A model generated the notes under the pieces. That model had not been told where the DNA came from. It ran no database searches and worked only from the letters and a program-made list of their open reading frames with translations. From Anaerolineae bacterium (lineage in GTDB: Bacteria; Chloroflexota; Anaerolineae; B4-G1; SLSP01), in the NCBI GenBank assembly GCA_026991395.1, contig JALXBP010000149.1, positions 1 through 33,588 on the forward strand: a stretch of DNA of 33,588 nucleotides, in the 5' to 3' direction. The translations under genes and the position numbers were made by a program. Shown piece after piece: positions 429-20,829 of this stretch. Every line of letters begins with the position of its first letter. Positions within the stretch are counted from its first letter, which is position 1.

Positions 429-3400
429 TTAATTATTATTGGAACTATTGAACAACGGGAGACGAACGGTAAAGGTGGAGCCCTTACCGACCTCACTTTC
501 CAGCGTCAGCGTTCCCCCGTGCATCTCTACGAGGGAGCGCGTGATGGCCAGCCCCAGTCCCGTTCCTTGAGCCTTGCGCGTGTAAGAGCCGTCGGCCTGT
601 CGGAACTTTTCGAAGATGATCTCACGGGCCTCTTCGGGAATGCCGACGCCCGTATCCTCCACGGTGATCACAGCCCACTGCCCCTCGCGGCGGGCATAGA
701 TGCGGATATATCCCTCCTCGGTGAATTTGATGGCATTGGAGACGAGGTTGTTGAAGACCTGATGAATACGGAGCTGATCGGCGGGCACCAGAGGGAGATT
801 GTCATCGACGATGACTTCCAGCTTGACGGACGACCCTTGTTTCTGCAGGAGCCCTTCGCCGCTGCTGGCGATCTCCTCCAGGATGGTGCGCAGATCGATG
901 GGATGGATGTCCAACGACATCCGCCCGGCCTCGATCTTTGCCAGGTCGAGAATGTCGTTGATCATCGAGAGCAGGTGCTGACCGTTCTCGTAGATGGCCA
1001 GCACATCTTCCCGCATCTCGTCCGTCAACTCCCCATCCACGCCCATCAGGATCATCTCGGCGTAGCCGATGACGGAATTGAGCGGCGTGCGCAGCTCATG
1101 GCTCATGTTCGCCAGGAACTCGCTCTTCAGACGATCCAGTTCCTGCAGGCGCTGCGCCGTTTCACGCAGTTCCTCCACATAGCGGGCACGGCTGAGCGCT
1201 GTGGCAATCTGCGTGGAGAGGGCGCGGAAGAGAAGGACATCTTCCTCCTCGAAGCTGTGAGGTCTATCCATGAAGACGCGATCGACGATCATCAGCCGAT
1301 CACCGCTGAAGACGGGGACGACGGCCTCGGCCCTGGCCTCCGGCAAGTATTCGCGCAGATCGAAGTCCTCGTCCGCCTCCAAGTCGTTGATGATAACGAC
1401 CTCGCGTGTCCGCGCCGCCCTGACCATCGGATGCATCTCGTCGCTCATCGGCACGACCCGCCCATCGGCCACGATGCGCTTGCTGATCTCGCCGGTGCCA
1501 GCCCGCGGGATGAGCGCATCGGCCTCCTCGTCGTAGAAGTAGATTTGGATGTGGTAGAAGCCCATTTTGCTCCTCACCAACTCGGGAGCCACGGTCATCA
1601 GTTCCTTCACATCCTGATAGGTCGTAATGGCACGGGATATCTCGGCGGAGAGTTGCAACTGACGTTCACGGCGCTTGAGGCTGGTGATGTCTCGAACGGT
1701 CGTGATGAAGCCCTCGCTCTGTCCCTCGATCTGCGGCAGCATCGCCGCATTCAATTCGGCAATGAAGGTTACGCCATCCCGACGGCGCATACGGACCTCA
1801 ACGGGCTGGCTGCGTCCGGCCTCCAGAGCCTGCGTGAAAACCGAAGCTGCGCGGGTGCGGTCTTCCGGCACGATGAATTCCAGAATATTGTGTCCGCCGA
1901 GGAGTTCCTCGCGGGTGAGTTGCAGCATTTCCCAGGCAGCTCGGTTGGCATCCTCGATGACACCCGTCATACCACTGGTGAGCACACCATCTTTGAGCGT
2001 ATCCAGGGTCGTGCGAATACGGGCCACCGTCGAGCGGATCTCGGCTTCGGCTTTCTGCTGCTGCTCGAAGAGGCGGGCATTTTGCAGTGCCGTACTCGCC
2101 AAACGGGCCAGCGTGCGGTAAACGCTCAGGTCGGCCTCGGTGAAATAGCCCACCTTATCGGCCTGCACGTCGAAGACACCGACGACGCGGTTCTCGATCA
2201 AAATAGGAATGGCCACCTCGGCCTTCGTGTCGGGCAAGAGCAGGTTGGGTAAGAATCCCGGCTCCCGACTCACATCGTTGGCCAGGACGACCTCCTTGGT
2301 ACGGGCCGCACGGGCCACGAGGCTCTGCTCGCGATCGACGGGAATGCTGTGCCCCTGTTGGCGCATAATCCGCCCCGGTTCACCGTAACCGGCCACCAGG
2401 CGCAGAAGCCCTGCCTCCTCATCCAAGCTGTAGTAGTGGACGTGATAGAGATCGAAACGCTCCTTGTAGAGCGTGATCATCCTCTCCAGCATCCGCAGCG
2501 GATCGTGGATGGTGCTCACCTCCGCGGCCATTTCCGCAGCGATGTTCAGACGAGAGGCGTACAGCTCGCGTTCCGCACGGGAGGCGGCCTCCTGCTGGAG
2601 CAACTGCGCGTTGTGCACGGCGGCAGCAATCTGCTCGGCCAGCGTCGTGAAGACGCTCAGATCGGCATCGGTAAAAGCCTTCGGCTTGTCATCCTGCACG
2701 TCGAGCACGCCGATGACCTCGCCGCTGATCTTCATCGGGATGGCAACTTCCGAACGGGTCTCGGGCAGCAACTCATTCGGCAGGAAGTTCGGCTCCTGAC
2801 GCACGTCGGGGACAACGACCATCTCCCCTGTTCGCGCCGCCTGGGCAACGAGACTTTGTTCCCTGTCAAGCGGGATGCTATGGCCGCGCCGCAGCATCTC
2901 CTCCCCCGCCTCACCGTAACCGGCCTCCAGACGGAGGAGATGCTCCTCCTTATCGAGCGTGTAGGCGTGGGCATAGTAGATGCCGAAGCGCTCCACGATC
3001 GCGTCGATGACCTCCTGGAGCAGAACGGCGGGGTCCTGCAAGCGATTGGCCAAGGTGGCAATCTCGGCAGCGATGCGCAGACGCTCGGCGTAGCGCTCGC
3101 GCTCGCGGCGGGCGGCCTCCTCGCGTTGCAGGGCCTCCACATTGCGGAACGTCGCAGCGATCTGCTCGGCCAGCGTCGTAAAGACGCTCAGATCGGCTTC
3201 GGTAAAGGCATCCGGCTCATCGTCTTGCACGTCGAGGACGCCGACGACCTCATCCCCCAGCCGCAGGGGGATAGCGACCTCCGAGCGGGTGTCGGGCAGG
3301 AGCTTGTTGGGCAGGAAGTTCGGCTCCTTGCGCACATCAGGGACGACGACCATCTCCCCCGTCCGCGCCGCTTTGGCGACCAGACTCTGCTCCCGGTCCA

Positions 3401-5099
3401 GGGGGATACTGTGGCCGACCTCGAGCATACGTCGCCCCGGTTCGCCGTAACCGGCACGGAGGAACAGGGTCCGCGCGAGCATATCGAGGGTATAGACGTG
3501 GGCATAGTAGATGCCAAACCGTTCGACGATAGCATCGATGACCGCCTGCAGAAGCACATCAGGGTCTTGCAGGCGGTTGGCCAGGGTGGCGATCTCGGCA
3601 GCCGCCTTCAACCGCTCGACGTAATGTTCGCGCTCGCGGCGGGCCATCTCCTGGCGCTGGATGGCCTCGGCATTACGGAAGGCCGTGGTGATATGCGCCG
3701 CCAGCGTGGTGAAGACGCTCAAATCCCCTTCGGAGAAGGCATTGGGGTGACTATCCTGCACATCGAGGACGCCGATCACCTCTTGCCCGACCATCAACGG
3801 GATGGCGACCTCCGATCGCGTGTGCGGCAACAGCTCGTTGGGCAAGAAGTTCGGCTCCTTGCTCACATCGGGAACGACGACCATCTCCCCCGTCCGCGCT
3901 GCCTTGGCGACCAGGCTCTGCTCTCTGTCGAGCGGGATACTGTGACCGCGCCGCAACATCTCCTGGCCCGGCCCGCCGTAACCGGCCCGCAGCTTCAGGA
4001 TGCCGCTTTCCGCATCCAGCGTATAGGCATGCGCATAGTAAATGCCAAATCGCTCGACGATGGCATCGATCACTACTTGGAGCAAGGCGTCGGGGTCCTG
4101 CACGCTGTTGGCGAGGACGGCGATCTCCGCCGCAGTCTGGAGGCGTTCCGCGTACAACTCACGCGCCTTGCGAATCTCCGCATTGCGGAAGGAGGAGGCA
4201 ATCTGCTCGGCCAGCGTCGTGAAGACGCTCAAGTCGGCTTCGCTGAAGGCTGCGGGGACATCGTCTTGCACGTCGAGGACGCCGATCACCTCATCGTCGA
4301 GCTTCAGCGGGATGGCGACCTCCGAACGTGTCTTGGGCAGCAGTTCGTTGGGGAGGAAGTTGGGTTCTTCTTGCACGTCGGGAACGACGACCATCTCCCC
4401 CGTCCGCGCCGCCTGTGCCACCAGGCTCTGTTCCCTGTCGAGCGGGATATGGTGGCCACGTCGCAGCATCTCCTTCCCTGCTTCGCCGTATCCGGCACGC
4501 AGATAGAGCACATCCTCCCGCGGGTCGAGGGTGTAAACGTGGGCGTAGTAGATGCCGAAACGATCGACGATGGCATCGATGACCGCCTGGAGCAATTCCA
4601 GCGGGTCTTCCAGCCGATTCGCAAGCGACGCGATCTCGGCTGCCGTGTGGAGGCGTTCGGTGTAGTGGCGAAGCCGCTCCTCCGTCGCCTTCTGCTTGCC
4701 GATATCGAACATACTGGCGATATAACTCTCCGGCTTGCCTTCGGCATCTCGCACAACGGTTGCCGTCAGGCTCGCGATCGTCATATGCCCATCTTTATGC
4801 TTGTGGCGGAGCGTTCCTTGATAACGCCCCTCTTTTCGAAGCCGCTCCAACACCGCCGGTGGGTGGAAATCGGTCAACAGTTTCCCGATCAGGTCGTCTA
4901 CCGAAAGATCGAGCATCCTGGCCATGGTCTCGTTGACGAAGACGATCTTGCCCTCCCCATCGGCGATGGCGATACCCACAGGCGCTTGCGCCGTCAAAGC
5001 GGTCATCCAGGTAATGGGGATACTTTCCAGTGTGGTCTTCACAACAGCAGGTACAGGGGCATGGGTATTGGCGGACTTACGCTTCCTCTTGGCACTCAT
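429..5099 (-). CDS. giant soluble sensor histidine kinase: PAS, five repeat GAFs, PAS, GAF, HisKA-HATPase
   Basis: This 1556-residue sensor kinase autophosphorylates on histidine and passes phosphate to a response regulator. Domains in order are PAS (about 30-140), GAF1-GAF5 (about 155-1007), PAS (about 1030-1145), GAF6 (about 1150-1300), HisKA with phospho-acceptor H1334 in S-H-E-L-R-T-P, and HATPase_c. The ATPase has an N-box near 1451, D-T-G-V-G-I-P near 1483 and G-T-G-L-G-L near 1515. GAF1-GAF4 are near copies: each has D-R-E-Q-S-L-V-A and [12 protein letters not shown]5 is more diverged. No membrane helix or signal peptide is present, so the protein should be cytosolic. I find no cysteine in the whole protein, so no bilin thioether or Fe-S ligand is possible. 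The ATG at 5099 has GGAGGG 8 bases upstream and a sigma70-like promoter. No dedicated response regulator is adjacent. The ligands of the GAF domains are unknown. Confidence 0.95.
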
Positions 5100-20370: not shown

Positions 20371-20397
20371 AAGCCCCTCGGCATAGCCGAGGGGCTT
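20371..20397. terminator. bidirectional hairpin between the DUF362 gene and the tRNA cluster
   Basis: A 12-bp perfect stem, AAGCCCCTCGGC (20371-20382) paired with GCCGAGGGGCTT (20386-20397), has a 3-base loop. It lies 5 bases after the DUF362 stop and 4 bases beyond the 3' end of the first tRNA. On the minus strand the stem ends in TT and runs into TGTG. It can serve both converging transcripts. Confidence 0.8.
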
Positions 20398-20401
20398 CCT
20401 C

Positions 20402-20478
20402 TGGTACCCCTGTCAGGACTTGAACCTGAAACCTTTTGGTCCGCAACCAAACGCTCTATCCAATTGAGCTACAGGGGC
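20402..20478 (-). tRNA. tRNA-Arg (GCG), copy with encoded CCA
   Basis: Cloverleaf: acceptor GCCCCTG pairs with CAGGGGT (first pair G-U). The D-arm has the Arg-like GCTCAATTGGATAGAGC with A20. The anticodon stem TTTGG/CCAAA encloses loop TTGCGGA, so the anticodon is GCG (reads CGC and CGU). The T-arm is TCAGG-TTCAAGT-CCTGA. Discriminator A73 is followed by an encoded CCA (20404-20402). The gene is 77 bases including CCA. Most bacteria use ACG here, edited to ICG. Confidence 0.93.
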
Positions 20479-20493
20479 ATACTTTCACCCAAG

Positions 20494-20567
20494 TACCCCC
20501 GTCAGGATTTGAACCTGAAGCCTTTTGGTCCGCAACCAAACGCTCTATCCAATTGAGCTACGGGGGC
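20494..20567 (-). tRNA. tRNA-Arg (GCG), tandem copy without encoded CCA
   Basis: This is a near copy of the neighbouring tRNA-Arg, with the same D-arm and the same anticodon stem-loop (TTTGG-TTGCGGA-CCAAA). The acceptor is GCCCCCG/CGGGGGT, again with a G-U first pair. The extra-loop/T-arm junction differs by single bases. A73 is followed by CTT, so CCA must be added after transcription. It lies 15 bases from the other copy in the same transcript. Confidence 0.93.
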
Positions 20568-20570
20568 AAA

Positions 20571-20663
20571 TGGCGGGGAGGCAGGGATTCGAACCCTGGA
20601 GGGAGCTTCTAACCCCCTAACCGCTTAGCAGGCGGCCCCAATCGTCCACTCTGGCACCTCCCC
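20571..20663 (-). tRNA. tRNA-Ser (GCT)
   Basis: Acceptor GGGGAGG pairs with CCTCCCC. The anticodon stem is GCCGC/GCGGT with loop CTGCTAA, giving anticodon GCT for AGC/AGU. A long variable arm (TTAGGGGG...CTCCCTC) is typical of class II serine tRNAs. The T-arm is CAGGG-TTCGAAT-CCCTG, with discriminator G73 and encoded CCA (20573-20571). Confidence 0.95.
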
Positions 20664-20680
20664 ATCTTGACCTGTTAAGG

Positions 20681-20767
20681 CGGAGGGAGAGGGATTCGAA
20701 CCCTCGGTGACCTTTCGGCCACAACGGTTTTCAAGACCGTCGCCTTCGTCCGCTCGGCCATCCCTCC
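20681..20767 (-). tRNA. tRNA-Ser (TGA)
   Basis: Acceptor GGAGGGA pairs with TCCCTCC. The anticodon stem ACGGT/ACCGT encloses CTTGAAA, giving anticodon TGA for UCA and UCG/UCU by wobble. The variable arm TGGCC-GAAA-GGTCA is long, as in class II tRNAs. The T-arm is GAGGG-TTCGAAT-CCCTC, with discriminator G73 and no encoded CCA. It is the first gene of the tRNA transcript. Confidence 0.95.
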
Positions 20768-20801: not shown

Positions 20802-20829
20802 AGTATACCACGGAGCTTGACTTTGTCAA
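20802..20829 (-). promoter_or_regulatory. consensus promoter of the four-tRNA transcript
   Basis: On the minus strand, a perfect TTGACA (20824-20829) and TATACT (20802-20807) are 16 bases apart, about 35 bases before tRNA-Ser(TGA). This is the best promoter in the window, as expected for stable RNA genes. Confidence 0.88.

Follow-up and report, generated by a model that had tools for sequence, protein, structure and literature searches.

Tandem tRNA-Arg(GCG) genes and probable TadA-free reading of CGN codons in an Anaerolineae genome, with apparent intermediate states among its Chloroflexota relatives

Introduction

Several groups of bacteria are already known to read the arginine CGN codons with a tRNA-Arg(GCG) instead of tRNA-Arg(ACG). 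By the wobble rules, anticodon GCG reads CGC and CGU, TCG reads CGA, and CCG reads CGG. The tadA gene, whose product edits A34 to inosine, is often regarded as essential or near-essential in bacteria.

One of the closest described cases is that of the Mycoplasma Pneumoniae group of Mollicutes without TadA, in which tRNA-Arg(GCG) and tRNA-Arg(UCG) read CGN with no ACG and of which M. gallisepticum has two GCG genes; in the model proposed for these reduced, AT-rich genomes, the loss of tadA was followed by the loss of CCG and the gain of UCG (Yokobori et al. 2013, PMC3711424). That paper also names Borrelia, Treponema, Thermotoga, Helicobacter, and Campylobacter as having GCG instead of ACG, and a review describes the replacement of ACG by GCG in Spirochaetes and Thermotogae, adding that A34 and G34 exclude one another among the tRNAs of one amino acid (PMC8007984). 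In CPR bacteria and Absconditabacteria, CGN is served by GCG, UCG, and CCG, and ACG is absent (Shulgina and Eddy 2021, PMC8629427, which cites Rafels-Ybern et al. 2019 for deep-branching bacteria without inosine wobble). With regard to the enzyme, B. subtilis is viable without its TadA (PMC10454642), and the eukaryotic ADAT3/Tad3 protein keeps the zinc site but has Val for the catalytic Glu, acting on A34 tRNAs as the partner of the active ADAT2 (PMC7713142). In the titles and abstracts that our searches of the open-access literature brought up, we found nothing about tadA loss in Chloroflexota, about GCG and ACG side by side, or about bacterial TadA proteins lacking the Glu, and Rafels-Ybern et al. 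(2019) may already name Chloroflexi.

Here we analyze a window of 33,588 nucleotides, the whole of contig JALXBP010000149.1 from an Anaerolineae bacterium, together with its genome and relatives. Like the Mollicutes of PMC3711424, this genome would read CGN with GCG and TCG and has neither a detected TadA nor ACG; unlike them, it keeps CCG, and among its relatives TCG occurs where ACG and tadA are still found. Its set of GCG, TCG, and CCG without ACG resembles that reported in PMC8629427 for CPR bacteria and Absconditabacteria, except that it belongs to an unrelated phylum and that codon reassignment is no part of our claim. As in Spirochaetes and Thermotogae, G34 replaces A34 in its CGY-reading tRNA-Arg; those groups are reported as fixed states, whereas Chloroflexota show both, some genomes having both tRNAs. 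The decoding of this genome is thus an ordinary case of a known strategy, and the common one in its phylum, made more interesting by the two-tRNA stage and the apparent pseudo-TadA found among its relatives.

Results

A preliminary description of the window, made from the sequence alone, had proposed two tandem tRNA-Arg genes with anticodon GCG. ARAGORN and Rfam both recover them, with the tRNA fold and the GCG anticodon in each (Table 1), and both copies have, as described, the loop TTGCGGA flanked by TTTGG and CCAAA. With Rfam E values of about 1e-13 for both, a chance match is excluded. The pair closes an array on the minus strand that runs, in order of transcription, Ser(TGA)-Ser(GCT)-Arg(GCG)-Arg(GCG), with spacers of 15, 3, and 14 nt and Rfam scores of 50 to 70 bits for the four tRNAs. 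Ahead of tRNA-Ser(TGA) lies the one promoter-like site found, against 0.2 expected in shuffles, and all four tRNAs are probably transcribed from it. A terminator scan of the window called 0 terminators; the hairpin at the end of the array received no call because its T run is not sufficient. A Pfam search of 20 window reading frames found no TadA and no seryl-tRNA synthetase.

Table 1. The tRNA array of the window and its flanking signals
Feature	Position	Strand	Basis
tRNA-Arg(GCG), distal copy 2, CCA encoded	20402..20478	-	ARAGORN; Rfam RF00005 70.0 bits
tRNA-Arg(GCG), proximal copy 1, without encoded CCA	20493..20567	-	ARAGORN; Rfam RF00005 70.5 bits
tRNA-Ser(GCT), ending 3 nt before the proximal Arg(GCG)	20571..20663	-	ARAGORN, Rfam
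tRNA-Ser(TGA), opening the array	20679..20767	-	ARAGORN, Rfam
Probable array promoter TTGACA-16-TATACT, 11/12 consensus bases	20802..20829	-	consensus scan
Strong hairpin 3' of the array, candidate terminator, short T run	20371..20397	-	fold -27.3 kcal/mol, z -4.8

The two Arg(GCG) copies are identical at 70 of 74 positions, and of the four that differ, two make up a compensatory exchange at acceptor pair 6:67 (T-A versus C-G), which speaks against the pair being an assembly duplicate. It is conceivable that one or both copies are decaying or idle and that a single copy does the work: the duplication is variable among relatives, two copies being found in 12 of 24, and within the pair only the copy at 20402 encodes CCA. 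We consider this quite unlikely, however, since both copies score about 70 bits, the change in their acceptor stems is compensatory, and some other tRNAs of the genome also have no encoded CCA. By all signs in the sequence, the pair is real and functional.

The genome to which the window belongs (G000) is a draft of 153 contigs totalling 2,457,921 bases, its completeness rated at 100% and its contamination at 2.73%. Rfam finds 47 tRNAs, every one of which was read with ARAGORN, and together they cover all codons. The tRNA-Arg genes are GCG (two copies), TCG, CCG, TCT, and CCT. The preliminary description had foreseen that CGA would need a second tRNA, and tRNA-Arg(TCG) is indeed present, on contig C87. 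It had also named a standard tRNA-Arg(ACG) together with tadA as what would make the pair accessory; there is no tRNA-Arg(ACG) and no other A34 tRNA among the 47, and a search with the TadA model NF008113, which gave matches in 12 of 14 control genomes, produced no match at E <= 0.001. The genome therefore has no ACG, a U34 tRNA-Arg for CGA, and no TadA match, as TadA-free CGN decoding by GCG, UCG, and CCG requires, and with no A34 tRNA it would need no A-to-I editing of tRNA. In the 17 genes of the window, to which rather than to the whole genome these counts apply, the arginine codons are CGC 345, CGG 167, CGT 79, CGA 32, AGG 31, and AGA 13. The commonest is thus CGC, and the Arg(GCG) pair is probably the main decoder of CGU and CGC, as first suggested.

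One proposed feature of the pair stood only in part. The first acceptor pair is G1-U72 in both Arg(GCG) copies, but it is equally present in the TCG, CCG, and TCT tRNAs, hence in five of the six Arg genes (CCT has G1-C72), so we reject it as a mark specific to GCG and regard it as a trait of this genome's Arg tRNAs. Nor does the body of the window's Arg(GCG) show any special closeness to ACG, being identical at 47-49 of 74 positions to the ACG tRNA of a relative, G012, and at 58 of 74 to the genome's own TCG.

GCG is widespread in the genome's own family (f1), where its pattern occurs in 22 of 24 genomes, with the two copies lying on the same contig in 10 genomes and on separate contigs in 2, and the TCG pattern in 15. 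A pattern search found no ACG tRNA in these 24 genomes apart from one match in G024, whose stem is unpaired by eye and which we set aside as a non-tRNA, and TadA was above the cut-off in none of them, the best sub-threshold score being 47.6 bits (NF008113). These results bear on whether the pair might after all be accessory, with a normal ACG tRNA and TadA missed by the assembly. The window's genome is a draft in many contigs, and three relatives (G019, G037, and G202, all less than 90% complete) have ACG without a detected tadA, so drafts do miss genes. Yet this draft is rated complete, its tRNAs cover every codon, and its family has GCG almost throughout with a credible ACG or a TadA above the cut-off nowhere, which leaves that account most improbable.

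Outside the family, both tRNAs are met. The 16 genomes of the sister families f2 and f3 have TCG in 16, GCG in 9, ACG in 7, and TadA above the cut-off in 7. In G012 (L077/L115/L148), the array Ser(TGA)-Ser(GCT)-Arg(GCG)-Arg(ACG) lies on one contig, in a genome that also encodes TCG as well as a 184-bit TadA whose HAE motif is intact. The same Ser-Ser-Arg(GCG)-Arg(ACG) array occurs at L157 (HyVt-544, DROW01000094.1), and in both arrays Arg(GCG) and Arg(ACG) are 3 nt apart. These are the two assemblies with GCG and ACG in tandem; tadA was searched for, and found, in G012. A further genome, G017, has GCG, ACG, and tadA; its draft assembly carries 5% contamination, and the two tRNAs sit on separate contigs. 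ACG occurs without a detected TadA in G019 (89% complete) and G037 (77% complete), and TadA with no ACG found in G013 and in G039, the latter with GCG and 6% contamination. Further out in the class, families f9 and f10 combine a Ser-Ser-Arg(ACG) array with tadA and TCG. Within the window's order, then, the switch from ACG to GCG seems to be seen part-way. As a separate matter, the G012 and L157 arrays run against the mutual exclusion of A34 and G34 stated for the tRNAs of one amino acid.

Across the phylum, we surveyed 201 Chloroflexota genomes of at least 85% completeness. The GCG pattern was found in 162 of them, with ARAGORN applied to part of the matches only, and the TCG pattern in 168; a GCG match in G052 has a stem that does not pair by eye and is a non-tRNA. 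The ACG pattern matched in 12, of which seven were confirmed by ARAGORN and two by eye only, while those in G095, G157, and G221 gave no tRNA by ARAGORN; with the further ACG genomes G012, G167, and G150, the total is again 12. TadA was above the cut-off in 17 of the 201 genomes and reached 125 to 145 bits (NF008113) in six more, and the HAE motif was present in all 20 inspected of these 23. Such a TadA is found in 11 of the 12 ACG genomes, the exception being G202, which is 89% complete. Conversely, the 23 TadA genomes include those 11 with known ACG and 12 that matched neither the GCG nor the ACG pattern, and among the GCG-pattern genomes of the sample a TadA of either grade occurs in G012 only. 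In Chloroflexota, ACG and tadA are both rare, and they co-occur. The initial premise that almost all bacteria use tRNA-Arg(ACG) must be qualified to this extent: GCG is found instead in several known groups and is the common state in this phylum.

An RpoB tree covering 56 genomes puts the minimum number of changes at 9 for tadA and 9 for the ACG/GCG state. In seven independent pairs differing in tadA, with G150 and G215 outside the test, ACG followed tadA in 6.0, ran opposite to it in 0.3, and did not differ in 0.7, a small test with a median p of 0.031 (range 0.031-0.125). A covariance-model check of ten genomes of unknown tRNA state gave five readable cases (G013, G134, G078, G172, and G153 gave no call), and all five fit: G159, G160, G189, and G215, which have no TadA, have GCG, and G150, which has TadA, has ACG.

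The place of tadA offers some indication of direction. In families f2, f3, f9, f10, and f55, a true tadA is found immediately upstream of tRNA-Ser(CGA); counted over loci, 10 of 26 true tadA genes are within 150 nt of it on the same strand, and 19 are within 1500 nt regardless of side. For the altered tadA of families f17 and f29, described below, the figures are 12 and 13 of 14. Because this place next to tRNA-Ser(CGA) is common to distant families, we suggest that tadA goes back to a common ancestor and that many losses followed. The argument is weakened by the other 16 true tadA loci, mostly of f14, f24, f40, and f49, which do not have the exact arrangement. The opposite polarity, in which GCG is ancestral in the phylum and ACG and tadA are later gains of certain lines, would agree with the far greater frequency of GCG (162 of 201 versus about 12), and the counts of change on the tree give no direction. 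Against it stands the shared placement of tadA beside tRNA-Ser(CGA), in altered form in f17 and f29 too, and on balance we think it rather unlikely. As for the CGA reader, TCG co-occurs with ACG and tadA in G012, G167, G175, and f3, and it adjoins ACG in G194, G122, G202, and G204. Its presence alongside ACG and tadA argues that it was in place before TadA was lost, unlike the sequence of events in the Mollicutes model (PMC3711424).

The altered tadA represents a further state. In 18 sampled genomes of f17 and f29, GCG or TCG is present and no ACG was found, and 17 of the 18 (all but G162) have a TadA-like gene scoring 95-125 bits (NF008113). This misses the TadA equivalog threshold of at least 150 bits; two scanned proteins gave 114.7 and 114.5. 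The catalytic glutamate of the HAE motif is absent in 17 of 17 (HAV in 16, HAI in 1; L197-L209, L216, L268-L270), while the zinc ligands H and PCxxC are kept in all 17 with the motif EPCxMC intact. The nearest solved structures are TadA, and the proteins form one clade (100/100) within the TadA group, on a long stem of 0.89. Across the 14 closest pairs out of 136, dN/dS is low, ranging from 0.05 to 0.25 by simple NG86 counts, dS being saturated in wider pairs. G056, the sole such genome with all tRNAs read, has 47 tRNAs and no A34 tRNA. A partial search for an active ADAT2-like partner, covering eight further deaminase loci of f17/f29 genomes (L271-L278), identified none among the three with a readable HAE deaminase, which fall outside the TadA group; the other five gave no match to the motif applied. 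The gene is thus an apparent pseudo-TadA, an ortholog seemingly disabled yet conserved.

Discussion

We hold with high confidence that the window carries two functional tRNA-Arg(GCG) genes serving TadA-free decoding of CGN, a state probably reached by the loss of ACG and tadA after a stage in which GCG stood beside ACG, with the tandem duplication of GCG coming later. In this mechanism, G34 would pair with CGC by Watson-Crick pairing and with CGU by wobble; CGA would be read by tRNA-Arg(TCG), which could also take CGG, and tRNA-Arg(CCG) would read CGG. Adenosine-to-inosine editing would not be required where no A34 tRNA exists, allowing TadA to be lost. The ancestors probably had tRNA-Arg(TCG) plus a GCG gene adjoining ACG, at which point ACG and tadA would have been redundant and both could disappear, with the GCG gene duplicated in tandem later, in family f1. 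Directly observed are the gene content, the absence of both ACG and any TadA match, the relatives' tandem arrays, and the coupling between ACG and tadA across the phylum; from these we infer the expression and charging of the Arg(GCG) tRNAs, the codons that each decodes, and the order of events. The proposed order draws on few intermediates, and the tree gives no direction of change.

With regard to the fate of the enzyme, the f17/f29 protein is like ADAT3 (PMC7713142) in keeping its zinc site while Val takes the place of Glu. It is unlike ADAT3 in that the partial search found no TadA-like active partner and that G056 has no A34 tRNA. Tentatively, and with somewhat less than even confidence, we propose that Chloroflexota repeatedly dropped inosine editing by way of a GCG-plus-ACG stage, and that in f17 and f29 TadA, instead of disappearing along with its substrate, lost its Glu once and has since been kept by purifying selection for a non-catalytic job, such as binding RNA or a partner, as a bacterial counterpart of the step that produced ADAT3. 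Such a pseudo-TadA would be a natural experiment in what becomes of a deaminase once its substrate disappears. More broadly, Chloroflexota hold genomes with ACG and tadA, with ACG, GCG, and tadA, with GCG and no tadA, and with GCG and an apparently dead TadA, and these four states within one phylum make the route by which a tRNA edit is lost testable in living relatives.

Several minor observations were made along the way. The anticodon-arm pattern gave 37 matches in named genomes, comprising 34 with record titles that we assign to Chloroflexota (Anaerolineae, Thermoflexales, Thermomicrobiaceae, and others), one Rubrobacter, one Candidatus Moranbacteria, and one 'bacterium'. The Rubrobacter (L145) and Candidatus Moranbacteria (L155) matches are Arg(GCG) tRNAs from outside Chloroflexota whose anticodon arm is closely similar. 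In the window itself, positions 429-5099 on the minus strand hold a 1556-aa histidine kinase frame with several GAF (six stretches) and PAS domains (Pfam). Finally, ARAGORN identifies a tRNA-Ile with anticodon TAT in family f49 (L394, G150:C130:14409-14482), a tRNA that, to our knowledge, is described as missing in most bacteria.
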